Shown: positions 3,304 to 17,172 of the stretch, one piece after another
Numbering within the stretch: position 1 is the stretch's first letter
How the letters are laid out: every line of letters begins with the position of its first letter
IMG/VR virus record: IMGVR_UViG_3300033388_003217
Location: 1-23,780 of that record
Strand: one strand, 5' to 3'
Length of the DNA: 23,780 nucleotides
DNA from: a virus
The notes under the pieces: model-generated
Database searches by the model: none
What the model was told of the DNA's origin: nothing
What the model saw: only the letters and a program-made list of their open reading frames with translations
Program-made: the position numbers and the translations under genes

Positions 3304-3732
3304 ATGTATTCGGTAATCAAAAAAACAAGATTTGAAATGGCGCACAAACTGACTGAAGCATTCGCAGAAGAATGCAAGGAAATTCATGGACATTCCTATA
3401 CATTGGAAGTCATTGTCAAATCGGAATCCCTGGATAATTTTGGAATGGTAATGGACCTCAAACTTTTGGGCAATATCATCCAGGAAAGAGTCATTAAGGA
3501 TCTGGACCACAAATGTCTGATTTTTGAAGAAGATCCCATCTTCCCGGCCCTGCAGGGAATCAATGAATCTCTGGTCACCCCAACAAAATACAATCCCACC
3601 GCAGAAGCAATGGCCGAGAATATTCACAGCATCCTTTATCCTGAACTTACCCGGATGGTGCCCCTATTGCATTCCCTGATAATCCGCCTGCATGAAACCG
3701 AAACCGGCGCTGTTGAATTTACAAGGAGCTAA
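3304..3732 (+). CDS. queD: 6-carboxy-5,6,7,8-tetrahydropterin synthase (QueD)
   Basis: QueD converts dihydroneopterin triphosphate, the product of FolE, to 6-carboxytetrahydropterin, the second step of 7-deazaguanine synthesis. The 142-residue protein has the usual family length. It shows zinc ligands H14, H28 and H30 (the last two in IHGHSY), the nucleophile C24, the LDH catalytic pair D68/H69, and E131 near the C-terminus in a HETETGAVEF segment. AAGGAG lies just upstream of the ATG. The gene ends one base before queE. Together with queE, queC, folE and dpdA downstream it forms a DNA-modification pathway. A 6-pyruvoyl-tetrahydropterin synthase would be the close alternative, but the neighbours make QueD the safe call. 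Confidence 0.93.
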   Translation: MYSVIKKTRFEMAHKLTEAFAEECKEIHGHSYTLEVIVKSESLDNFGMVMDLKLLGNIIQERVIKDLDHKCLIFEEDPIFPALQGINESLVTPTKYNPTAEAMAENIHSILYPELTRMVPLLHSLIIRLHETETGAVEFTRS

Positions 3733-3733
3733 A

Positions 3734-4414
3734 ATGTTGAGAGTCGTAAGTATATTCACAAGTATTTCCGGCGAGGTTGGGGGATTCCCTCAAGGCTCTA
3801 TGACCCAGTTTGTTCGATTCGGTGGGTGCAATCTTTGTTGCCAGTATTGCGATACAGCGAATACCCAGCCCATGGATTCCGGCCAAGAGATGGAGGTGGG
3901 AGATATTGCCCAAATCCTGCTCCAAAGGGGTATCAAAAATGTGATTCTAACTGGGGGTGAGCCTCTGCTACAGGATCGCAAGGAATTGGCAACCCTGACC
4001 CGCCTATTGCATGAAAAAGGTTACCGATTCTCCATTGAAACCAATGGCACTATTCGGGTCCCATTTGCCCTGCGCCCTACTTGCAGTTTTGTTATGGATT
4101 ACAAAATGGATATGCCGGAACTTATGCAGGATGAAAGATTCCTTTCTTTGGGTACAAACGATTTTGTAAAGTTCCCCATTCCAGATCGGCAAACCCTTAT
4201 GATGGCAATTGAAATCCAGCGCCGGTTATATCAAAGGGGATGCGTGGCTAAATTTGCTTATTCCCCCATATTTGACCGGGCCGGGGATACTGAGATAGCT
4301 TTTAACCAAACGGCTTGTTCTCAGGCATGTCTGAGCATTATAAACGCATTATCCGAATGCAGGATGGATGCCATTCTTAATCTGCAGATCCACAAGATTA
4401 TCAATGCAGAATAA
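3734..4414 (+). CDS. queE: 7-carboxy-7-deazaguanine synthase (QueE), radical SAM
   Basis: QueE rearranges 6-carboxytetrahydropterin to 7-carboxy-7-deazaguanine (CDG) using a 4Fe-4S cluster and S-adenosylmethionine. The cluster motif is CX3CX2C (C32, C36, C39 in GGCNLCCQYCD). It is followed by the GGEP SAM-binding motif (74-77) and an ETNGT segment. The protein is 226 residues, normal for QueE. I take the ATG at 3734, which has AAGGAG six bases upstream and begins LRVVSIFTSISGE, the typical QueE N-terminus. The longer frame from 3692 only overlaps queD. An extra cysteine (C35) lies inside the cluster motif. The gene is followed by an AT-rich hairpin and the leader of the next gene. Confidence 0.93.
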   Translation: MLRVVSIFTSISGEVGGFPQGSMTQFVRFGGCNLCCQYCDTANTQPMDSGQEMEVGDIAQILLQRGIKNVILTGGEPLLQDRKELATLTRLLHEKGYRFSIETNGTIRVPFALRPTCSFVMDYKMDMPELMQDERFLSLGTNDFVKFPIPDRQTLMMAIEIQRRLYQRGCVAKFAYSPIFDRAGDTEIAFNQTACSQACLSIINALSECRMDAILNLQIHKIINAE

Positions 4415-4421
4415 AATAAAT

Positions 4422-4541
4422 AAAATATATTTTTATATTTTGCGGTTAGAGAGTATTATATAATATCAAGGATTAAAAAATAATCCAAATTAAATTTAAT
4501 TTTTTACTAAGGAGTACGAAAAATACTAAGGAGTACGAAAA
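4422..4541 (+). promoter_or_regulatory. Structured AT-rich leader between queE and the D/N-tract gene
   Basis: This 127-base gap holds several elements. At 4422-4441 an A/T-only 8-bp hairpin (AAAATATA, loop TTTT, TATATTTT) could end the queDE transcript weakly. At 4452-4464 GAGTATTATATAAT gives a strong -10-like box without a good -35. At 4470-4486 GGATTA/TAATCC forms a small hairpin. At 4487-4502 a perfect 16-base palindrome (AAATTAAATTTAATTT) runs into six T residues. A duplicated ribosome-binding site follows (4505-4542). The most economical reading is a transcription restart for the 4542 gene, with the palindrome as an operator, attenuator or weak terminator. All of this is sequence-pattern inference. 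Confidence 0.45.
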
Positions 4542-4542
4542 A
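4505..4542 (+). repeat. 19-bp perfect tandem duplication carrying the Shine-Dalgarno site
   Basis: The unit TACTAAGGAGTACGAAAAA occurs twice back to back (4505-4523 and 4524-4542). The last A of the second copy is the A of the ATG at 4542. Each copy carries an AAGGAG ribosome-binding sequence, but only the second is followed by a start codon; the first would run into ATA. The duplication gives the mRNA two adjacent Shine-Dalgarno sites, which may raise ribosome loading, or it may simply be a recent slippage product. Confidence 0.9.
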
Positions 4543-5120
4543 TGGCCAAAAAGAAAAAAGTCGACATGAAAGATCTGGATGCCCTGAAAAAAGTTGGAAA
4601 AGAACTTCAGCTCATTGTGAATCCCACGGATGCCAAGGACAAGAAAATCACCATTTCCAAAGGCAAGATTGAGCAGGTGAAAAAGAAACTTAAAGAGTGC
4701 GGCGCCTGCCTGACCACAGCGGATGAAATTTCCGACGAGCTGGCCTTTGTCTTGAAAAAACTCAAAGTTGAAATCCCGGAACCCGAATCCGATGATAACG
4801 ACAATGACAATGACAATGACAACAATGATGACAACGATAATAATGATAATGACAACAACGATAATGATAATAATGATGACAACAATGATGACGACGACAA
4901 CAATGATGATGACGCCCTCACCCTTGATGAAGTCATGAAAATGAAAAAAGATCCCCTGAAAAAGCTCATCAAAGAAAAAAAGATGAAGATCAAAGTTTCC
5001 GGCAAAAAAGTTGGTGACCTGCGGGATGAAGTTGCCGCCTTCCTCGGCCTGTCTGAATCAGATGACAATGATGAGGATGACAATGATGATGACGACAAGA
5101 ACAATGACAACAACGACTGA
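4542..5120 (+). CDS. D/N-tract nucleic-acid-binding-type protein, first part (frame open to TGA at 5118)
   Basis: A 192-residue product with modules joined by Asp/Asn-only linkers. Residues 1-82 form a Lys-rich helical domain. Residues 84-124 are a pure D/N tract. Residues 125-172 form a small helical domain (about LTLDEVMKMKKDPLKKLIKE) resembling Rho-N/SAP-type nucleic-acid-binding folds. A second D/N tract begins at residue 174. The frame stops at TGA (5118-5120) inside that second tract, while D/N coding continues in the +1 frame from 5119 into a basic C-terminal region. A single extra base (T5118) explains the break. Restored, the protein would be 352 residues. The start has the duplicated SD. 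It sits inside the deazaguanine cluster; a DNA-binding or genome-organising role is only a guess. Confidence 0.75.
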   Translation: MAKKKKVDMKDLDALKKVGKELQLIVNPTDAKDKKITISKGKIEQVKKKLKECGACLTTADEISDELAFVLKKLKVEIPEPESDDNDNDNDNDNNDDNDNNDNDNNDNDNNDDNNDDDDNNDDDALTLDEVMKMKKDPLKKLIKEKKMKIKVSGKKVGDLRDEVAAFLGLSESDDNDEDDNDDDDKNNDNND

Positions 5121-5151
5121 TAATGATGATGACAACGATGATGACGACGAT
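4791..5151 (+). repeat. GAY/AAY low-complexity tracts encoding Asp/Asn linkers
   Basis: Two stretches, 4791-4913 and 5061-5151, consist almost only of GAT, GAC, AAT and AAC codons with a few GAG and AAG. In frame they read D and N; in the next frame M, I and T; and in the third frame stop codons (TGA, TAA). A one-base change therefore either kills translation quickly or switches to an M/I/T-rich product. The mixed use of synonymous codons reduces exact repeats, which hints at selection for the amino acids rather than simple microsatellite growth. Confidence 0.85.
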
Positions 5152-5601
5152 TCCCTGGAAGACAAGGTAAAAGCCGCCACCAAACTTGATGACCTCAAAG
5201 AGATCTGCGCCGACAATGCCGATGAGTTCGGTAAACTGGCAAAGAAGAAAGCCCTGAAAAAATTCAAGGGTCTTGAGGGTGTCCGTGAGCTGAAGGCAAA
5301 GATGTGCAAAAAGCTCGGCATCGTAATTGAAAAGAAAGCCCCGGCCAAAAAAGGTCCCAAAAAACCCGGTGTCATTGCGACCATCGTTACCCTGATCAGC
5401 TCTAAACCCATGAGCAAGAAAAAACTGCTCAAGGAATTGGTCAAGGCATTCCCGGATCGTGATGCTGACAAGATGGAAAAGACCCTGAATATCCAGGTGC
5501 CCAACCGTATCAGAAAGGAAAAGAATGAATCCCTGACTGAGAACAAAAAAGGCAAATGGCTCTTCAAAAAGACTGTCGGCGACATCAAAAAAACCAAATA
5601 A
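5104..5601 (+). CDS. D/N-tract protein, second part (winged-helix C-terminal domain), frame-shifted
   Basis: This is the downstream half of the 4542 gene, in the +1 frame. After D/N codons (5119-5151) it encodes a helical Lys-rich module (about LEDKVKAATKLDDLKEICAD) and then a winged-helix-like domain. That domain has helices around KPMSKKKLLKELVKAFPDRD, a recognition-type helix near LNIQVPNRIRKEK, and a C-terminal wing ending GKWLFKK. Winged helices of this kind are common in phage DNA-binding proteins. There is an ATG at 5104, which overlaps the upstream stop, but it has no ribosome-binding site and would read M-T-T-T-T before the D/N codons. I therefore think this part is made by frameshift, or that the sequence has an extra base, rather than being a separate gene. 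Confidence 0.65.
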   Translation: MTTTTDNDDDNDDDDDSLEDKVKAATKLDDLKEICADNADEFGKLAKKKALKKFKGLEGVRELKAKMCKKLGIVIEKKAPAKKGPKKPGVIATIVTLISSKPMSKKKLLKELVKAFPDRDADKMEKTLNIQVPNRIRKEKNESLTENKKGKWLFKKTVGDIKKTK

Positions 5602-5604
5602 TCT

Positions 5605-5671
5605 GACTATCCTTATAGTCTAATTTACCGAAAAAATCCCTGGCGGTGGTTCAACTGCTTCCAGGGATTTT
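5605..5671 (+). terminator. Two hairpins between the D/N-tract gene and queC
   Basis: At 5605-5620, GACTAT-CCTT-ATAGTC forms a 6-bp hairpin followed by TAATTT. At 5633-5671 a perfect 11-bp stem (AAAATCCCTGG with CCAGGGATTTT) encloses a 17-base loop (5644-5660). The A-run before and T-run after the second stem give the look of a bidirectional intrinsic terminator, although the T tract is only four bases. The right arm lies about 10 bases from the queC ribosome-binding site (GAGGAG, 5677-5682), so the structure could instead tune queC expression. No preQ1 riboswitch motif is visible here. Confidence 0.55.
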
Positions 5672-5690
5672 GTATAGAGGAGAGAAATCA

Positions 5691-6377
5691 ATGGGAAAAG
5701 TATTACTTTCATTATCAGGTGGGGTTGATTCAACTACCCTTTTGGCATGGCTACTTGCCGGCAATTCAGAGGTCACAGCCATCTCATTCAAATACGGTTC
5801 CAAGCATAACAAATATGAAAACGAAGCGGCCCGGCAACTTGCTCACCATTATGGGGTTGAGCTGATTGAATTGGATATCCAGCAGGCAATGATAAATATC
5901 CAATCAAACTTGCTGTCATCTGGTGGGGCTATTCCAGAGGGGCATTATGAAGAAGAATCCATGAAGTCAACAGTTGTCCCGGCCCGTAATATGATCTTCC
6001 TTTCAATAATGGCAGGCATAGCAGAAAGCCGGGGATTAGAAGGGCTCGCCATTGGGGTCCATTCAGGCGACCATGCCATCTATCCGGACTGCCGCCCCGA
6101 GTTCATAACTTCCATGACCAAATCAGTCCAGCTCGCAACGGACAACCAAGTCCAGTTTATCATGGCACCTTTTATTGATTATGGTAAAGGCAAAATCATT
6201 CAAACCGGAATAGCCCTTCCCAGGCCAGTCCCCTACCGATTAACCCGAACCTGTTATACCGACCAGCCCCTGGCTTGTGGTAAATGCGGGAGCTGTGTGG
6301 AGCGCCTTGAAGCCTTCCAGGTTAACGGCATAACTGACCCCATCCAATACGAAACAGATGCCATAGGAGAAATCTAA
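5691..6377 (+). CDS. queC: 7-cyano-7-deazaguanine (preQ0) synthase QueC
   Basis: QueC uses ATP and ammonia to convert CDG to preQ0 in two steps. The 228-residue protein has the PP-loop SLSGGVDST (about residues 7-15) and the C-terminal zinc site C188, C196, C199 and C202 (CX7CX2CX2C). Both are diagnostic. I choose the ATG at 5691, preceded by GAGGAG. The longer frame from 5646 runs back into the hairpin and adds 15 unrelated residues. The stop overlaps the ATG of folE by one base. It is an ordinary stand-alone QueC, not the amidotransferase-fused form (Gat-QueC) that makes dG+ in phage 9g, so preQ0 is the likely end product. Confidence 0.93.
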   Translation: MGKVLLSLSGGVDSTTLLAWLLAGNSEVTAISFKYGSKHNKYENEAARQLAHHYGVELIELDIQQAMINIQSNLLSSGGAIPEGHYEEESMKSTVVPARNMIFLSIMAGIAESRGLEGLAIGVHSGDHAIYPDCRPEFITSMTKSVQLATDNQVQFIMAPFIDYGKGKIIQTGIALPRPVPYRLTRTCYTDQPLACGKCGSCVERLEAFQVNGITDPIQYETDAIGEI

Positions 6378-7297
6378 TGTTTGAATATGATATAGAACAT
6401 TTTGACAGGGACATAGAAAGCCTGGCAAGGATCATTACCAGAGAGGGTCGAGAGTATGTCGGTATCTATGGCATCCCACAAGGTGGAATCCCCCTGGCAG
6501 TTGCATTATCAATATCACTTAGCCTCCCTTTGGTATCTAAAGAATCCCTGATGGACTATGATGATGAAGGGCTGGAAATTTTGATTGTGGATGACCTGCT
6601 CGACTCTGGCAAAACTTTATCAGAATGGGATGCCTATGATTGCGCTGTGATTGGATACAAACCAGAATCCCCAAAACATAAAGGCAAATTGTATGTTGCC
6701 AGGGAATTTCCACAGGAATGGATTCACTTCTTTTGGGAGCCCCCTGAAACGGAAGACCCTGAAAAACATATTACCAGGTTGATTGAATTTATCGGGGAAA
6801 ATCCTGATCGGGAAGGTCTGCAGGAAACCCCAAAAAGGGTAATCAAATCATTCAAAACACTCTACGGCGGATATGCCCAGGACCCCGAAGAGATCATGAA
6901 AACTTTTACCGAAGATGACTGCGATGAAATGGTTGTCTTGAAAGATATCACAATCCATTCCACCTGCGAACATCATATGCTTCCATTCAGTGGGGTAGCC
7001 CACATTGGATATATTCCGGATGGCAAGGTCATTGGGGTTTCCAAATTAGCCAGATTGCTTGAAATTTTCGCAAGACGGCTCCAGATACAGGAAAGGATAG
7101 GGGAGCAGGTTACTTCGGCTTTAATGAAGCATTTAAAGCCCCTTGGTGCCGTATGCGTGATAGAAGCCCGGCACTGCTGTATGACGGCCAGGGGAGTCGA
7201 ACAACAAACCACCACAATGATTACTTCCTCTTTGAAAGGGGTCATGAAAGAGAAGGCCGCTACCAGGGCTGAATTCATGCAGTTTATCAAAGGATAA
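6377..7297 (+). CDS. folE: Phosphoribosyltransferase - GTP cyclohydrolase I (FolE) fusion
   Basis: Two enzymes in one 306-residue chain. Residues 1-122 look like a type I phosphoribosyltransferase: the PRPP-binding motif ILIVDDLLDSGKT (68-80) and a WIHFFWE segment near 115-121, which recalls xanthine/hypoxanthine phosphoribosyltransferases. Residues 127-306 are GTP cyclohydrolase I: NPDREGLQETPKRV, the zinc ligands C197 and H200 in CEHH plus a cysteine at 267/268, GVSKLAR, and GVEQQ. FolE converts GTP to dihydroneopterin triphosphate, the first step of deazaguanine synthesis. The attached domain could recycle free purine base to nucleotide and so feed GTP to FolE; that is inference. It overlaps queC by one base and is followed by a small ORF and dpdA. 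Confidence 0.9.
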   Translation: MFEYDIEHFDRDIESLARIITREGREYVGIYGIPQGGIPLAVALSISLSLPLVSKESLMDYDDEGLEILIVDDLLDSGKTLSEWDAYDCAVIGYKPESPKHKGKLYVAREFPQEWIHFFWEPPETEDPEKHITRLIEFIGENPDREGLQETPKRVIKSFKTLYGGYAQDPEEIMKTFTEDDCDEMVVLKDITIHSTCEHHMLPFSGVAHIGYIPDGKVIGVSKLARLLEIFARRLQIQERIGEQVTSALMKHLKPLGAVCVIEARHCCMTARGVEQQTTTMITSSLKGVMKEKAATRAEFMQFIKG

Positions 7298-7468: not shown

Positions 7469-8494
7469 ATGTTTATTGCCGCTGGAAGCAGTGTTTGTAA
7501 TAAGACCGATCACAAGATTGCAAAACTGCTTCCTCGACTCCTATCATATTATCATATTACTGACAAAGGATTTGGTTATTCATTATGGAAATTTATTATG
7601 AAAAATAAAAAAAATAAGGTAAACTTGTTCTTGGATTCCGGGGCATTCTCGGCCTGGTCTCAAGGGGCGGAAATTGATATCAATGAATACATCGACTTTA
7701 TTAAAAAGAACAAGAAGTACATTGATGTTTATGCCAACCTGGATGCCATTGGGGACCCCGATAAAACCCTGGCGAATCAACGAATAATGGAGAAAGCTGG
7801 ATTGCGCCCGCTTCCTTGTTTCCATTATGGGGAGCCAATCAAATACCTCAAAACCTATTTAAAAGATTATGACTATATTGCCTTGGGTGGTATGGTGCCA
7901 ATCTCAACAAAGGATCTCAAGCCCTGGCTGGATGATTTGTTTGTAAACCATCTTTGCGATAAAAAAGGAAATCCCATAGTCAAGATACATGGGTTCGGGA
8001 TGACAGCTCTTTCTTTGATGCTTAGATATCCTTGGTGGTCTGTGGATTCAACCTCCTGGGTAGTCACCGGGCGCATGGGAGGTATCTTAATTCCCAGGCG
8101 GACAAATGGCAAATATGATTATAACAAAAACCCATTGAAAGTGACTGTCAGTGCGAAGTCCCCGGCTAACAAAAAGAAGGAAGCCCATTTCAGCACAAGC
8201 AGTCCTGCACAGCAAAGAATCTTTCGCAAGTATTTTGAGGCAAAAGGATTCGAGCTGGGTGAATCGACATTCCGGAAAGAAGATCCAAAGACCTATGAGC
8301 CCAAAGAAAATGAAAAATGGAACAAGAAAAAAGAATCAATAATTGAGACAGTAATCAAGCGGGGTCTTTGTAATGATTATCGCCTGCGAGATGAACTCAA
8401 TATCCTTTACTTTCTTGATCTGGAAAAGAAATTACCAACCTGGCCCTGGAAATTCAAATTGAAAGGTCGCATGAAGGGATTTTTTGAAAAATGA
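7469..8494 (+). CDS. dpdA: DpdA-type DNA 7-deazaguanine transglycosylase
   Basis: DpdA is a tRNA-guanine-transglycosylase-like enzyme that swaps guanine in DNA for a 7-deazaguanine base. The 341 residues follow the phage DpdA pattern: FLDSGAFSAW (54-63, with D56 as the likely catalytic acid/base), YANLDAIGD (88-96), a FHYGE segment (118-122), YIALGGMVP (136-144), IHGFG (173-177) and YPWWSVDSTSW (187-197, with D193 as the likely nucleophile). The C-terminal 130 residues are basic and less conserved. SD GAGGAG precedes the ATG. The last bases overlap the ATG of the next small gene. Substrate is probably preQ0, because FolE, QueD, QueE and QueC are all encoded here and no QueF or amidotransferase is seen. 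Confidence 0.9.
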   Translation: MFIAAGSSVCNKTDHKIAKLLPRLLSYYHITDKGFGYSLWKFIMKNKKNKVNLFLDSGAFSAWSQGAEIDINEYIDFIKKNKKYIDVYANLDAIGDPDKTLANQRIMEKAGLRPLPCFHYGEPIKYLKTYLKDYDYIALGGMVPISTKDLKPWLDDLFVNHLCDKKGNPIVKIHGFGMTALSLMLRYPWWSVDSTSWVVTGRMGGILIPRRTNGKYDYNKNPLKVTVSAKSPANKKKEAHFSTSSPAQQRIFRKYFEAKGFELGESTFRKEDPKTYEPKENEKWNKKKESIIETVIKRGLCNDYRLRDELNILYFLDLEKKLPTWPWKFKLKGRMKGFFEK

Positions 8495-8679
8495 TTATCT
8501 ACCTTGCGAGTACTGCTCCTGGCACCGAAGGCAAGAAGGATAGGCCCATGTGCGATATCAAAATGCGCCTTTTATCTTATTGGCATATACGGAGCAAGGA
8601 ACTCTATTCAGACCTCATTTACAAGCATATACGGCGCATCAAACGCAAGTATAAGGAGACTCCCAATGGCAAACGATAA
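8491..8679 (+). CDS. DpdA N-terminus-like mini-protein A, 62 aa
   Basis: Starts at an ATG overlapping the dpdA stop (ATGA). Residues 1-8 (MIIYLAST) and 26-33 (RLLSYWHI) match the layout of the DpdA N-terminus, which reads MFIAAGSS then RLLSYYHI at 23-30. After that point the protein is a short basic helix and ends, so the catalytic barrel is absent. Two more genes with the same head motif follow at 8830 and 8979. The internal ATG at 8666 begins another gene in a different frame. It could be a regulatory or dimerising partner of DpdA, or an unrelated small family with a shared fold start. Function unknown; the gene is likely real because of the coupling. Confidence 0.65.
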   Translation: MIIYLASTAPGTEGKKDRPMCDIKMRLLSYWHIRSKELYSDLIYKHIRRIKRKYKETPNGKR

Positions 8680-8833
8680 GAAAAAATACAAGCTGGTAAT
8701 CACCCCGTCAATTCCTGTGGTTGATCGGCATGAAATTGAAAAAGTATTGAATGATAATGGTTATTTTGTTTATGGTGGGGGGACTGATCTGACAAATGAT
8801 TCTTGTGATATTTCATTTGAGGAAAAAGAATGA
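8666..8833 (+). CDS. Hypothetical protein, 55 aa
   Basis: ATG at 8666 with AAGGAG at 8653-8658 gives a 55-residue acidic protein; the frame is open further upstream (to 8504), but that part lacks a ribosome-binding site. The sequence reads as strand (YKLVITPSIP), helix (RHEIEKVLNDNGY), strand and loop with GGGTD, then DISFEEKE. It is a compact alpha/beta layout without a family I recognise. It overlaps mini-protein A by 14 bases and mini-protein B by four bases (ATGA). Function unknown. Confidence 0.6.
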   Translation: MANDKKKYKLVITPSIPVVDRHEIEKVLNDNGYFVYGGGTDLTNDSCDISFEEKE

Positions 8834-8982
8834 AGATCATCCTTGCAGGGTCTCTTGCCGGCAAAACGAAGGAAAGGGAATATTTGTTAAGAAATAATCA
8901 TCGCTTGCTTTCCTTTTATGAGATCCACAATAAACTGTTTAATGCCCTTTTGTCTTTCAAAATTATAAGGAAACGCAGATGA
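8830..8982 (+). CDS. DpdA N-terminus-like mini-protein B, 50 aa
   Basis: Second of three small proteins sharing a head with DpdA: MKIILAGS at residues 1-8 and RLLSFYEI at 25-32, followed by a short basic tail (KIIRKRR). The ATG overlaps the upstream stop and its TGA overlaps the next ATG, so the small genes are read as one coupled string. No catalytic residues of the transglycosylase are present. The conserved spacing between the two motifs (about 16-18 residues) across all four proteins argues against chance. Function unknown. Confidence 0.6.
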   Translation: MKIILAGSLAGKTKEREYLLRNNHRLLSFYEIHNKLFNALLSFKIIRKRR

Positions 8983-9131
8983 AGATCTATTTGGCAACTT
9001 GGCTACTTGAGCCTGCACAGGGAGAGGCATTAACCAAGAAAAAAGCAAGGGAGAGATTGATCAGTTATTTCCATACTGTGGCAAAGGCAGATCAGTTTAA
9101 AAAATATGTTATAAAAGGAATTAACAAATAA
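8979..9131 (+). CDS. DpdA N-terminus-like mini-protein C, 50 aa
   Basis: Third member of the mini-protein set: MKIYLATW at residues 1-8, and RLISYFHT at 26-33, then a Lys-rich tail ending KKYVIKGINK. It overlaps mini-protein B by four bases and ends three bases before the next ATG. Same interpretation as its neighbours: a stand-alone version of the DpdA N-terminal segment, of unknown role. Divergence between the three copies suggests they are not recent duplicates. Confidence 0.6.
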   Translation: MKIYLATWLLEPAQGEALTKKKARERLISYFHTVAKADQFKKYVIKGINK

Positions 9132-10614: not shown

Positions 10615-10821
10615 ATGTCTGTCAAAATTAAGGTTGCTTGTGAGATTGAAATAATTCAAAGCGGGAATTTTGGTGCTACTTGGACCCTGGAAGAAATTCG
10701 GAAAACAGGGCTCCGGGAAGCTATAGATACCTTAAACAGGATCGTAGCGGCGAACAAGGGAAAGATTAAATTTGTGGGCAAACCCAAGGCTATTTCATTC
10801 ATCCATACCGAGGACTTGTAA
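10615..10821 (+). CDS. Hypothetical protein, 68 aa
   Basis: Small protein with strand-helix-strand layout: KIKVACEIEII, then a helix from about residue 25 (TLEEIRKTGLREAIDTLNRIVAA), then KIKFVGKPKAISFIHTEDL. Start follows GGGGGG by five bases, and the stop overlaps the next ATG by one base. No family recognised. Its place between clamp and polymerase-associated genes suggests a replication accessory. Confidence 0.65.
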   Translation: MSVKIKVACEIEIIQSGNFGATWTLEEIRKTGLREAIDTLNRIVAANKGKIKFVGKPKAISFIHTEDL

Positions 10822-12044
10822 TGAAGCCGTTTTTTGGGAAAGAACAAACCAAGAGTGACCGGATTACCAAGGTGCCTACATCCTGCGCCAGCTGTGGGCT
10901 CCATAAAACAGCAAAGAATCCCAGGATCAAACCCCACGGCAAATTTGGTAAAAAGATCCTGATAATTGGGGAAGCCCCTAATCGCCGGGATGATGCCAGG
11001 GGCAGAGCCTGGACAGGTAGCGAAGGGGATTTTATCAAGGATGTATTCAAACAGAATGGAATCCATATATACCGGGATTGTATCACATCATATGCCTGCA
11101 TTTGTCCTATCCCAAAAGACAAGAAACCCGAAGACAAAGAAATTATGTGTTGCCGTAGAAAAGTAACAAAATTGATCAAAGAGTTAAAACCCAAAATGAT
11201 CTTTTTAGTTGGCTCTGCGGCTGTCCATTCTGTCATTGGGAAGAACTGGAAAAAAGGGGTCGGGGGGATGGATCGGTGGAGGGGTTGGCAGATTCCGGAC
11301 AGAGAGTTCAAATCATGGATCTGCCCCATCTTTTCTCCCAAATATGCGGAGACCCGGGACATATGGAAAAAGACAAATCTGGCTGAAGTCATCTGGTCAA
11401 ATGATATCAAGAGCGCCTTGAAAAGATTAAATGAACCCATCAAGTTCAAGGATGAGACAAAATATATAACCTATGTCGAGAACGATAAGCATTTCAAATC
11501 AATAATGCCTCGTTTACTTAAAGCAGATCTAATGTCCTTTGATTATGAGGGCACTGGATTAAAGCCCCATGCGAAGGGTCATAAGATAACCAACACGGCG
11601 GCTTGCATTGGAAAGAAAGAATGCTACTCGTGGATGAACACCCCATTGAACCAGAAGCTATTTAGAAAGGTTCTACAAACTCGCTCTATAAAGAAAAGCG
11701 CCCATAATATGGCTTTTGAGAATATGTGGTCGAGGGTTATCTTAAAGGCAAAGGTAGAGGGCTGGTACTGGGATACCATGATCAATGCCCACATCCTGGA
11801 TAATAGGAAAGGCATATCAAGTTTGAAATTCCAAACATATGTTAATTTTGGGATGGCTGATTATGATTCCCATGTCAATCCTTTCCTGCAGTCCGGGGAC
11901 GAGGAAGGAGCGAACTCATTCAATACAATTGAAAAATACATAAAACAATATGGCACCCGACCAATCTTGACTTATTGCGGACTGGATGCCATTTATGGAT
12001 ATTATTTAACCATTCTCCAAATGGCATTGGTCAAGTCATTCTAA
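10821..12044 (+). CDS. UDG-like domain fused to DEDD 3'-5' exonuclease (N-terminal half of a split PolA)
   Basis: Residues 1-200 resemble a family 4 type uracil-DNA glycosylase: a cysteine pair C22/C25 and further cysteines C93/C95 and C110/C111 that could hold a 4Fe-4S cluster, and motif 1 GEAPN (50-54) followed by GRAWTGSEG. Motif 2, normally HPS/HPA, reads FSPKY (171-175). Residues 225-407 form a DEDD proofreading exonuclease: FDYEGTG with D241 and E243, AHNMAFEN (the motif II Asp is replaced by Glu), and YCGLD (motif III). The polymerase domain is a separate gene at 12582. A UDG-superfamily domain at the polymerase N-terminus is known from phage SPO1 DNA polymerase. Proofreading is likely; glycosylase activity is doubtful given motif 2. 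Confidence 0.82.
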   Translation: MKPFFGKEQTKSDRITKVPTSCASCGLHKTAKNPRIKPHGKFGKKILIIGEAPNRRDDARGRAWTGSEGDFIKDVFKQNGIHIYRDCITSYACICPIPKDKKPEDKEIMCCRRKVTKLIKELKPKMIFLVGSAAVHSVIGKNWKKGVGGMDRWRGWQIPDREFKSWICPIFSPKYAETRDIWKKTNLAEVIWSNDIKSALKRLNEPIKFKDETKYITYVENDKHFKSIMPRLLKADLMSFDYEGTGLKPHAKGHKITNTAACIGKKECYSWMNTPLNQKLFRKVLQTRSIKKSAHNMAFENMWSRVILKAKVEGWYWDTMINAHILDNRKGISSLKFQTYVNFGMADYDSHVNPFLQSGDEEGANSFNTIEKYIKQYGTRPILTYCGLDAIYGYYLTILQMALVKSF

Positions 12045-12054
12045 GGGATTAAAC

Positions 12055-12582
12055 ATGGCTAAAAACAAAAGAAAAACAAAATATACAAAGCCCAAATGGG
12101 TTGGTGAGATACCGATGCCATTGGTGATCAGGGGAGTTGTATATAACTTCTATGCCTGCCGGGAATGCGTGTATACATTGGAGTATGATAAAGCCAGGCG
12201 CAAAAGAAAAAAATCAATTCGATTACCAGGAAATAAAAAGAATACAATGGAGGTAGTTTGCCAAGATCATCGAGCTCCCTTATTGATCAAATTTAAAAGA
12301 TGTACTTGCGGTCAGGAGCATTGGGGATTCTATTTGCGCTCCAATCCAACCTGTGTAAATTGTGGTAAATTCCCTGATCAATTTGAAGATATTGAAATTG
12401 ATAAAGTGAGGGAATATTATCGGCTTTCAGAATATTACAAAACGACTATCGAAAACCTGGGTGATCCTGATAGATGGAATTGTATCAATCGAGCCCTTTG
12501 TCTGGAGTGCACTTATGAAGATGGGTCAAGAAAGGGGATTGCCTGTAAGGAATGCCCCTCATATACTATAGGGAGAATCTAA
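12055..12582 (+). CDS. Twelve-cysteine putative zinc protein between the polymerase halves
   Basis: Unrecognised 175-residue protein. Cysteines occur as CX2C or CXC pairs: C35/C38, C69, C83/C85, C100/C103, C143, C149/C152 and C164/C167, enough for up to three zinc sites. The N-terminus is basic (KNKRKTKYTKPKW). No nuclease catalytic motif (HNH, GIY-YIG, LAGLIDADG) is visible, so it is not an obvious homing endonuclease, although its place exactly between exonuclease and polymerase domains is where such an invader would sit. It starts after AAGGGA and its stop overlaps the polymerase ATG (TAATG), implying coupled translation. It may be a polymerase subunit; this is inference. Confidence 0.7.
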   Translation: MAKNKRKTKYTKPKWVGEIPMPLVIRGVVYNFYACRECVYTLEYDKARRKRKKSIRLPGNKKNTMEVVCQDHRAPLLIKFKRCTCGQEHWGFYLRSNPTCVNCGKFPDQFEDIEIDKVREYYRLSEYYKTTIENLGDPDRWNCINRALCLECTYEDGSRKGIACKECPSYTIGRI

Positions 12583-14012
12583 TGCAGATACAAGCTACAA
12601 CCCAAGATGCCAAACGATTGATGCATGAAGGGTGCCTGGCTCTTTCGGAAGCATCTATTCAAGGCATGCGGGTTGATACCAAATATGTTAAAAAACAAAA
12701 TAAGTACCTGACGAAAAAATGTCAGATGCTTTCCAAGGATTTTGCCCGAACCAAAATAGGCAAAGTTTGGAAGAAACAATTCCTGTCCCCAAACTTCAAT
12801 TCTGATACCCAGCTCAGGGAAATCCTTTTTAAGAATCAGGGCATAAAGCCAGTCAAGAACACCAAGCCCAGTAAAAAGAACCCATTGGGGCAACCCTCTG
12901 TTGATAATGAATCCCTGGAATTGATATCCAAGGATATTCCAGATCTAAAACCGTTCATGGAATACAAAAAGCTATCCAAAGTCAACAATACTTTTCTGTC
13001 CGGGATTCTGGCAGAGCAGGTTGATGGAATTATACATCCCTTCTTTCATTTACATATTGCCAGGACATTTCGATCCAGCTCCAGTAATATCAATTTCCAT
13101 AATCAACCCAACCGGGATAAAAAACAAAAGAAGATAGTCCGCTCATCCTTTATTCCCAGTCCGGGTAATCATTTAATGGCGGCGGATTTCACCGGCATTG
13201 AAGTTGGGACATCCTGTTGTTATCATAAAGATAAAAAGATGCTCCATTATGTAAGGCATCCTGAAAAAAATAATATGCATACGGATATGGCTGTCCAATT
13301 ATACATGCTGGATAAGTTTGTGAAAGAGGGTGGGGAGAAGATTTTAAGAAAGGGAACCAAGAACGGCTTCGTCTTTCCCCAATTCTACGGCGATTACTAT
13401 AAGAATAACGCCGCTTCTCTTGCGAACTGGGGCAATCTACCCACCAAGGGTAAATTCAGCAAAAAAGACGGGGTTATACTCGCCACAAGCGGCAAGTCCC
13501 TTGGCAAGCATCTTAGGAAAAAAGGAATCCGGGATTACGATGACTTCCTTGAGCATGTTAAGAATGTTGAAAATGATTTCTGGAATAACCGATTTAAGGG
13601 TTACAGGGATTGGAAAAAAAGGAATGTTAAGGAATATTACAAAAAGGGATATCTCAAAACTTTAACAGGGTTCACCTGCTCCGGCGAGATGGGCGAAAAC
13701 GATATAAATAACTATCCCATTCAGGGGGCCGCTTTTCATATGCTCCTTAAAACCTACATCGAAGTTTATCGGCTTCTGACAAAGTATAAATTCAAAACTA
13801 AATTGATTGGACAGATCCATGATGAGCTGGTCCTGGATGCCAATCCAAAAGAAACAAATGATGTCATGGAAATTATCCAGAATGTCGCCTGTACATGGTT
13901 GCATGAAGAATTCAAATGGCTAATCGTGCCAATGGTCATCGAAGCCAATATATTTGATGTCGATGCTAATTGGGCGCAGGAGTCCAAGGTCCTTGAATTA
14001 AAGGCGGCTTAA
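12582..14012 (+). CDS. polA: Family A DNA polymerase, polymerase domain only
   Basis: 476 residues with all family A palm motifs: motif A MAADFTGIE (D202), the O-helix region KNGFVFPQFYGDYY (about 267-280), and motif C QIHDELVLD (H413, D414, E415). An ARTFRSSSSNINFHNQP segment replaces the TGRLSS...NLQNIP motif. There is no exonuclease or 5' nuclease domain. The N-terminus begins at the helix that directly follows the exonuclease in PolA (about LMHEGCLALSEASIQGMRVD), so the split is precise. The exonuclease is on the 10821 gene. I choose ATG 12582, which overlaps the upstream stop, not the frame start at 12552. It is probably the phage replicative polymerase, acting with the clamp. Confidence 0.9.
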   Translation: MQIQATTQDAKRLMHEGCLALSEASIQGMRVDTKYVKKQNKYLTKKCQMLSKDFARTKIGKVWKKQFLSPNFNSDTQLREILFKNQGIKPVKNTKPSKKNPLGQPSVDNESLELISKDIPDLKPFMEYKKLSKVNNTFLSGILAEQVDGIIHPFFHLHIARTFRSSSSNINFHNQPNRDKKQKKIVRSSFIPSPGNHLMAADFTGIEVGTSCCYHKDKKMLHYVRHPEKNNMHTDMAVQLYMLDKFVKEGGEKILRKGTKNGFVFPQFYGDYYKNNAASLANWGNLPTKGKFSKKDGVILATSGKSLGKHLRKKGIRDYDDFLEHVKNVENDFWNNRFKGYRDWKKRNVKEYYKKGYLKTLTGFTCSGEMGENDINNYPIQGAAFHMLLKTYIEVYRLLTKYKFKTKLIGQIHDELVLDANPKETNDVMEIIQNVACTWLHEEFKWLIVPMVIEANIFDVDANWAQESKVLELKAA

Positions 14013-15893: not shown

Positions 15894-17172
15894 GAAAAGA
15901 AGAGGATCTTCAATGGGTAAAGGCGCAAGAAAATCCAGGGCTTCCAGAAAGTCAGGCAAATCCTGGATCACGCTACCCGATAAGTGGGGCTATTTCAAAG
16001 AGGAAATTGATACCAGGATCAAGATGGACATCTTGCCTTATGTTGTAAAGAAAATGAAAAGACATCCTGAATTTGATAATATGTCCGAGGATGTGTGGTA
16101 CCGCTTCCCTTACAGGCTTCACCGGAATGTAGGCACCACCAAGAAATCATATCTCTGCCCTGGCACCATTGGCAAACCCTGCCCCCTTTGTGAGAAACTG
16201 CAGGAAGTATATGATGATCCGGATCTTACCAAAAAACAGGTCACAGCCCGGTCAAAGAAATTTCGCCCGGCTAAAAGATCTCTTTTCATCATCAAGGTCA
16301 AAAACGGCGACAAAAAGTTTAAAGGCAAAAAACTTATTTGGGATGTTTCCGATGCGAATTTCTTTGAAATCGTTGATAAGGAAATTGACTTGGGTGAAGA
16401 GGATTGGAATAACTTTGCCTGCCTTGAAGGCGGATATACATTAAAGGTCCGGTTCGTCGAAGAGTCCTTTGGTGATATCAAATATTGCGCCGCAGATCGG
16501 ATTGACTTTACTCCCAGGAAGGACTACACGGAAAAGATCCTAAAATCAAACCCCTGCCTGGATGATATGATCGTTCCCAATATCGAAAGCTACGATACCC
16601 TTGTTGAATTGATGGAGCCCGGCAAAGAAGAAAAGAAGGGGAAAAAGGGCGGCAAAAAGGGCGGCAAAAAGGGTGGCAAGAAAGGCGGCAAGAAAAGTTC
16701 CAAACAAAAGTTGAAGTGGTCAGACCTTGCAGATATGGATGAGGACGAATTGCTGGAGGTCTGTGAGGATTCCGGCATCGATCCGGATGACCTGGGATAT
16801 GAAGATGATGACGAACTTCGCCAGGAAATTGCCGTTGAGTTGGAAATTGAATCGCCGGATGATAATGACGACGATGATAATGACGACGATGATAATGACG
16901 ACAATGATAATGATGATAATGATGATAATGATGATAATGATAATGATGACAATGACAACGACGACGATAATGATGATATGATAACGACGACGATGACGAC
17001 GATGACAATGACAATGATAATAATGACAATAATGACGACGACAATGATGATGATGACGACGACAACAACGACAATGATGATGATGACGACGACGACGATA
17101 ATGATGATGAGAACGATAATGATGATGATAACGATGATGATGAGACTCCAAAGGAAAAAAAGCGTCGTCTAA
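15886..17172 (+). CDS. Zinc-binding single-stranded DNA-binding protein with D/N tract (frame open to 17172)
   Basis: Phage SSB of the gp32-like, zinc-containing type. The basic N-terminus (1-30) is followed by a core with H79 and C91, C99, C102 (CPGTIGKPCPLCEK), the usual zinc loop. The core runs to about residue 245, then come a KKGG repeat linker (about 249-264), a small helical SAP/Rho-N-like module (DLADMDEDELLEVCEDSG, about 280-297), and an Asp/Asn tract from about residue 325. In this frame the D/N tract switches at about 16977 into a Met/Thr/Ile stretch and ends at 17172. The D/N frame continues one base back (16980 on) into a proper C-terminal domain. One missing base (AAT read as AT at about 16978) restores a 520-residue protein ending at 17447. 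AAGGAG precedes the ATG. Confidence 0.8.
   Translation: MAKKRRGSSMGKGARKSRASRKSGKSWITLPDKWGYFKEEIDTRIKMDILPYVVKKMKRHPEFDNMSEDVWYRFPYRLHRNVGTTKKSYLCPGTIGKPCPLCEKLQEVYDDPDLTKKQVTARSKKFRPAKRSLFIIKVKNGDKKFKGKKLIWDVSDANFFEIVDKEIDLGEEDWNNFACLEGGYTLKVRFVEESFGDIKYCAADRIDFTPRKDYTEKILKSNPCLDDMIVPNIESYDTLVELMEPGKEEKKGKKGGKKGGKKGGKKGGKKSSKQKLKWSDLADMDEDELLEVCEDSGIDPDDLGYEDDDELRQEIAVELEIESPDDNDDDDNDDDDNDDNDNDDNDDNDDNDNDDNDNDDDNDDMITTTMTTMTMTMIIMTIMTTTMMMMTTTTTTMMMMTTTTIMMMRTIMMMITMMMRLQRKKSVV
16858..17144 (+). repeat. GAY/AAY low-complexity tract, about 96 Asp/Asn codons
   Basis: Almost uninterrupted GAT, GAC, AAT and AAC codons, with two GAG at the end. The frame carrying D/N is +1 relative to codon phase before about 16977 and shifts by one base after it, where GAT GAT AT GAT AAC replaces an expected GAT GAT AAT GAT AAC. 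The other forward frame is full of TGA and TAA. On the opposite strand the tract gives long Ser/Leu/His-rich frames that are shadows. Confidence 0.85.

Follow-up and report, generated by a model that had tools for sequence, protein, structure and literature searches.

The closest described relatives of the locus analyzed here are the phage DpdA enzymes (phrog_887), 7-deazaguanine DNA transglycosylases such as those encoded by Escherichia phages CAjan and 9g (PMC6884629), beside whose genes QueD, QueE, QueC, and FolE are specified, as is likewise the case in the window, i.e., the whole stretch of DNA under analysis, comprising positions 1 to 23,780 (23,780 bases) of the IMG/VR virus record IMGVR_UViG_3300033388_003217. 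The Queuovirinae gene order FolE-DpdA-clamp-polymerase is also found in the window, where the clamp is assigned by synteny only. Whereas the cultivated-phage DpdAs examined are single polypeptides with no small module genes nearby, the window DpdA has extra modules next to it, and relatives of the window phage, unlike the cultivated phages examined, often lack the first quarter of the DpdA barrel. A keyword search of the principal study on phage DpdA (PMC6884629) found neither split enzymes nor subunits mentioned, and no description of detached DpdA modules was encountered in the literature searched, although an earlier description may exist.

According to Foldseek, the window DpdA has the same barrel as TGT/ArcTGT (PDB 1j2b, 2ash, and 4q4m). 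The substrate of TGT is tRNA, and its strands 1 and 2 lie within one chain, whereas the small proteins described here (hereafter minis) are encoded separately. To our knowledge, no separately encoded beta1-beta2 unit has been reported. In phase-variable restriction-modification systems, the specificity subunits, which are the exchangeable component of a DNA-modifying enzyme, contain repeat tracts. The minis of relatives share such tracts in what would be the interchangeable part; they differ in being phage borne and in that what is exchanged would be a quarter of the catalytic barrel and not a target-recognition domain, its effect on specificity being presumed in the present case. In split TIM-barrel and half-barrel experiments, barrel parts fold on their own, and the laboratory half-barrels are of the 4+4 type (PMC4591997, PMC5770038), as opposed to the natural 2+6 division with arrays of alternative small parts that is proposed here.

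The window locus and its three minis

The preQ0 pathway genes located at 3304-7297 are predicted to supply the product of dpdA (Table 1), which would replace guanine in the phage DNA with a 7-deazaguanine; in the last of them, an N-terminal phosphoribosyltransferase-like domain is joined to FolE. Judged by its sequence, the window DpdA is clearly a member of the phage DpdA family, as its match to the phrog_887 profile covers residues 10-289 and spans the catalytic barrel. The Asp motifs FLDSG and SVDST, to which we assign a catalytic role on the basis of TGT knowledge, are invariant across 17 aligned DpdAs. Using the model of the window DpdA, Foldseek retrieved archaeosine/queuine TGTs as the best solved structures at moderate TM-scores (0.43-0.51), while no PDB entry was significantly matched by the DpdA sequence. 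UDG-exonuclease and DNA polymerase A genes, identified through Pfam, lie downstream of dpdA. The DNA polymerase (10821-14012) is represented by a UDG-exonuclease ORF and a polymerase ORF with a 175-aa ORF in between, in contrast to the single UDG-exonuclease/polymerase ORF of records L124 and L143. Several predicted proteins with long Asp/Asn repeats are encoded at 4542-5601 and 16700-17172.

Table 1. Annotated features of the preQ0-dpdA-mini region, in window coordinates
Feature	Position	Strand	Basis
QueD-like (PTPS), preQ0 pathway	3304-3732	+	Pfam
Radical SAM QueE-like, preQ0 pathway	3692-4414	+	Pfam
QueC, preQ0 pathway	5646-6377	+	Pfam
Phosphoribosyltransferase-FolE fusion (GTP cyclohydrolase I), preQ0 pathway	6377-7297	+	Pfam
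dpdA, predicted DNA guanine transglycosylase, 341 aa, full length with fused N-terminal module	7469-8494	+	phrog_887, E 3.2e-65; AF2 model; Foldseek
DpdA N-terminal module	7469-7621	+	Model secondary structure; hhalign homology to minis
DpdA core, predicted barrel strands 3-8 (FLDSG, YANLD, PCFHY, IALGG, KIHGF, SVDST)	7622-8491	+	Alignment and model; encoded alone in relatives
Mini 1, 62 aa, type MxIYLASTAPG...RLLSYW	8491-8679	+	ATGA overlap with dpdA stop
P0005, 55-aa ORF separating mini 1 from mini 2, outside the mini family	8666-8833	+	Not retrieved when the window was searched with regular expressions and profiles
Mini 2, 50 aa, MKIILAGS...RLLSFYEI..KLF	8830-8982	+	ORF and motif
Mini 3, 50 aa, type M(K/R)IYLATWLLEPxQG...RL(L/I)SYFHT	8979-9131	+	ORF and motif

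The sequence-only reading held that the products starting at 8491, 8830, and 8979 share the N-terminal motif of DpdA, and all four ORFs and their motifs are indeed as claimed: mini 1 starts with MIIYLA and carries RLLSYW at residues 26-31, mini 2 starts with MKIILA (RLLSFY at 25-30), and mini 3 starts with MKIYLA (RLISYF at 26-31), compared with MFIAAGSS and RLLSYYHI (23-30) in the window DpdA. The start codon overlaps the preceding stop codon as ATGA at the DpdA/mini 1, P0005/mini 2, and mini 2/mini 3 junctions, and the set therefore appears to be translationally coupled. P0005 is free of the motif, has a weak phrog_5858 match (E 0.0075), and is absent from L002, a related phage recovered via its DpdA (75% identity over 160 residues).

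Minis 1, 2, and 3 occur in L002 in the window order, with 54, 84, and 78% identity, respectively; the pN/pS values between the two phages were 0.39, 0.16, and 0.13, compared with 0.19 for DpdA. All three minis are real genes. The signature of mini 1 was present in 21 of 77 records, while the type represented by mini 3 was the commonest (45/77) and, in relatives, tends to occupy the first mini position downstream of dpdA (35 records). Mini 2 resembles, by eye, a module that stands alone in record L059 and is fused to DpdA in L117, the L059/L117 pairing itself having been scored. The dpdA gene of L002 contains a large in-frame insertion with intein-like ends just before the strand-8 motif SVDST (L002:7761-9836; 691 aa in all), and long dpdA frames (636-847 aa) are also found in G006, G008, and G017. 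An ORF resembling a NUMOD4/HNH homing endonuclease (L002:9833-10174) separates dpdA from the minis in this phage.

The minis had no match in Pfam, PHROG, or NCBIfam, which agrees with the suggestion that they form an undescribed small family. Scanning viral contigs with the three minis retrieved 23 distinct records, of which 22 carried dpdA (phrog_887); the sole exception is L009, whose contig ends at the mini, and L004, which matches it over 3.7 kb bar one base, has dpdA just upstream of the mini. The reverse scan, using a DpdA alignment, located at least one mini at 75 of 80 loci, the mini-found and dpdA-found sets overlapping in some contigs, and every mini at the dpdA-found loci (189/189) was on the strand of dpdA. 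Whichever of the two served as the query, minis and dpdA were almost invariably found together, as opposed to minis occurring widely in phages that lack dpdA. A pattern scan with mini 2 recovered L002 only, and tblastn searches of 50,697 phage records with two window minis and two minis of relatives gave chance matches only. A scan of a genome collection identified one contig with a similar locus, in a Spirochaetes MAG; on this contig, a DpdA core ORF comes after the terminal part of another DpdA-like gene of a different kind (L143:27-1359). No minis were present in the nine cultivated-phage dpdA regions examined, whose DpdAs have the same kind of N-terminal segment in fused form (e.g., MRIYLAAMYTS...LESYHYI...VFLDSGAFSA). 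One further record holds a tandem pair of DpdA-like genes (L105:4048-4953 and 4953-5978) with N-modules fused in both and no minis nearby, and in another a mini is in frame with a UDG-exonuclease-DNA polymerase A (L124:7437-10175; 912 aa), which may represent chance read-through.

The shared motif and the DpdA barrel

Profile-profile comparison (hhalign) of the minis with DpdA N-termini returned a probability of 99.0% (E 2.6e-18), and the mini-family profile gave no match at E<0.01 among 24,085 small ORFs obtained by shuffling; the relation, accordingly, exceeds chance, and the minis are homologous to the DpdA N-terminus. When the window DpdA was first modeled with AlphaFold (17 sequences), residues 1-51 were unresolved (pLDDT <50). 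When the minis were included as alignment rows, the mean pLDDT was 89.4 and that of the N-terminus was 64-84, a gain which is not owed to the minis alone as fused DpdAs were also added to this second alignment. In the resulting model, the N-module comprises strand 1 (residues 2-4), helix 1 (12-20), strand 2 (23-26, within RLLSYYHI), and a further helix (37-45), and the core strands lie at 53-56, 87-89, 117-119, 136-140, 172-176, and 191-194. Two N-terminal strands are thus combined with six core strands, from which it follows that MxIYLA and RLLSYYHI represent barrel strands 1 and 2 of the model, closure of the eight-strand barrel being judged by strand count and order rather than by coordinates. 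The window strand-2 motif RLLSYYHI and the strand-3 motif FLDSG are, as we judge by eye, in register with ILGNTYHL and LTDSGGFQ of TGT, respectively.

Each mini is, therefore, predicted by the model to be a free-standing beta1-alpha1-beta2 quarter of a TGT-like (beta/alpha)8 TIM barrel. The earlier statement that nothing of the catalytic barrel follows the motif is correct for the sequence beyond it, yet the motif itself, according to the model, constitutes barrel strands 1 and 2. We also considered that the minis might correspond to a binding domain added onto the barrel but not part of it, an idea which was dropped because the core provides only six barrel strands. In TGT, the equivalent region forms part of the floor of the substrate pocket and of the dimer interface (PMC5395182).

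Core-only, fused, and frameshifted modules in relatives

In many relatives, the dpdA ORF begins just 6-20 residues before FLDSGAFSA, with in-frame stops upstream; strands 1 and 2 are therefore missing from these core-only genes, and a fused start is excluded. Sorting of 73 records by hand, with some atypical N-termini included in the fused group, assigned 25 to the core-only class, 12 to a class in which the module is out of frame or interrupted by a stop, and 36 to the fused class, among which minis were found in 24, 12, and 32 records, respectively. In other words, 37 of the 73 records have a dpdA without an in-frame beta1-beta2 unit, and 36 of these 37 possess minis, the exception being L075, which has a core-only dpdA and in which no mini was found. 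Compared with the fused records (32/36), the excess of minis among the nonfused ones is a trend that is not significant (P = 0.20), because phages with a fused module also carry minis.

A tree built from 71 DpdA cores requires 24 changes among the fused, split, and frameshifted states, and 19 between fused and not fused, of which supported branches force only 4. For certain fused modules, the closest relative was a free mini from a different phage (L117/L059, L084/L083, and L026/L060), these three pairs being the only ones used since the standalone pool holds a few fused N-termini; 15 of 25 fused modules were nearest to other fused modules. Together, the data support the view that, in the course of evolution, minis have been swapped with the N-terminal module of DpdA itself.

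Among 80 nonredundant records, 139 modules were intact and 35 had strand 2 in another frame, compared with 1 of 139 in a chance control; with two doubtful cases set aside, 33 of 172 modules (approximately one in five) are frameshifted. Tracts of (GA)4 or longer, or of seven or more G/C, are 35 to 40 times denser in the modules than outside them; 27 of the 33 frameshifted modules contain one, compared with 28 of the 139 intact ones (P = 5e-11). These tracts are built by codon choice: Arg-Glu/Glu-Arg is written as AGAGAG/GAGAGA in 95 of 181 instances in modules versus 139 of 1,370 in long ORFs, and G6 encodes 16 of the 56 Gly-Gly pairs in modules but 16 of 877 in long ORFs. Tract lengths vary among close relatives (C8/C9/C7, G8/G9/G8, and GA of 10/17/17/19 nt), and the one base by which L004 and L009 differ over 3.7 kb is a G8/G7 difference in one mini, which may reflect either population variation or assembly error. 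The window's own minis contain no slippage tracts, and repeats of the contingency-locus type are found in the relatives only. Considered as an architecture, phase variation in the relatives is well supported, and from it we infer real on/off switching within phage populations.

A different origin of the frameshifts alone, compatible with assembly of the modules in trans, would be programmed ribosomal or transcriptional slippage that yields both short and fused products, or errors of metagenome assembly. Repeats are error prone, tract lengths may partly reflect assembly because all loci are metagenomic, and many of the (GA)n cases shift alike (+1); however, G/C tracts shift in mixed directions, close relatives differ in tract length, and none of 70 complete DpdA cores was interrupted over about 61 kb, albeit among loci picked by match quality. 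Such an origin is deemed somewhat unlikely.

Proposed assembly in trans and competing explanations

We propose, with a probability of roughly 55%, that the minis are detached quarter-barrel modules of DpdA which bind the enzyme and supply or replace this quarter in trans, and which are switchable in relatives. The minis would thus associate with DpdA to provide or substitute its beta1-alpha1-beta2(-alpha2) quarter: where dpdA is core-only (strands 3-8), they would complete the barrel, whereas with a full-length DpdA they would compete with its own module or pair with it as alternative subunits. The window DpdA is complete, and the window minis are, consequently, not needed for barrel closure. 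Simple repeats inside the modules of relatives would turn single modules on or off. Exchange of the quarter would alter the DNA contexts which are modified or the dimerization of the enzyme, either of which is likely given the role of this region in the pocket and dimer of TGT (PMC5395182). The association of DpdA with the minis, the complementation, and the effect on specificity are what we infer, and assembly in trans represents the most economical mechanism. A more far-reaching proposal, which we advance tentatively and regard as doubtful, is that of a TIM barrel naturally split 2+6, with a phase-variable array of mini-subunits as its first quarter, which would give each lineage its own pattern or intensity of modification and an escape from restriction.

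The main rival is that the minis regulate a complete DpdA, which they would tune or halt by acting as competitors or as alternative partners in the dimer, with no replacement of a barrel part. Dimerization decoys and partners that direct DpdA to DNA, both suggested in the sequence-only reading, are further candidate roles. It fits the window, where minis are present despite the enzyme having its own module, as they are in 32 of the 36 fused records; moreover, the beta1-alpha1 loop-helix of TGT is within its dimer interface, so that a role of the minis in dimerization is conceivable (PMC5395182). Regulation of this kind, nevertheless, leaves unexplained both the numerous core-only dpdA genes and the fact that, depending on the phage, one module type is either part of DpdA or a separate mini, and it is judged unlikely overall. 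Still less probable is that the minis are debris from repeated partial duplications of the 5' end of dpdA, generated by recombination or homing endonucleases, surviving by chance and decaying by frameshift. The proportion of frameshifted modules and the presence of homing elements such as the NUMOD4/HNH ORF of L002 are in keeping with debris, whereas purifying selection comparable to that on DpdA, conserved order, type-specific motifs retained across distant phages, the invariable location on the dpdA strand, and tracts built by codon choice argue against it. MKIYLA-like starts are also found in other enzymes, and the motif is short, but a chance likeness between unrelated proteins that share a short beta-strand start is hardly credible in view of the profile match, the near-exclusive linkage to dpdA, and the increased model confidence for the DpdA N-terminus once minis were included in the alignment.

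Assembly of DpdA in trans, if true, would provide a natural example of an enzyme composed of a quarter and a three-quarter barrel, with interchangeable quarters, and would bear on the evolution of TIM barrels from smaller pieces. It would also mean that a phage varies the modification of its own DNA in a manner comparable to bacterial phase-variable restriction systems. A testable reason is thereby offered for the existence of a family of approximately 50-residue proteins that is absent from Pfam, PHROG, and NCBIfam, and dpdA genes without an N-terminus serve as a warning against writing such genes off as broken.
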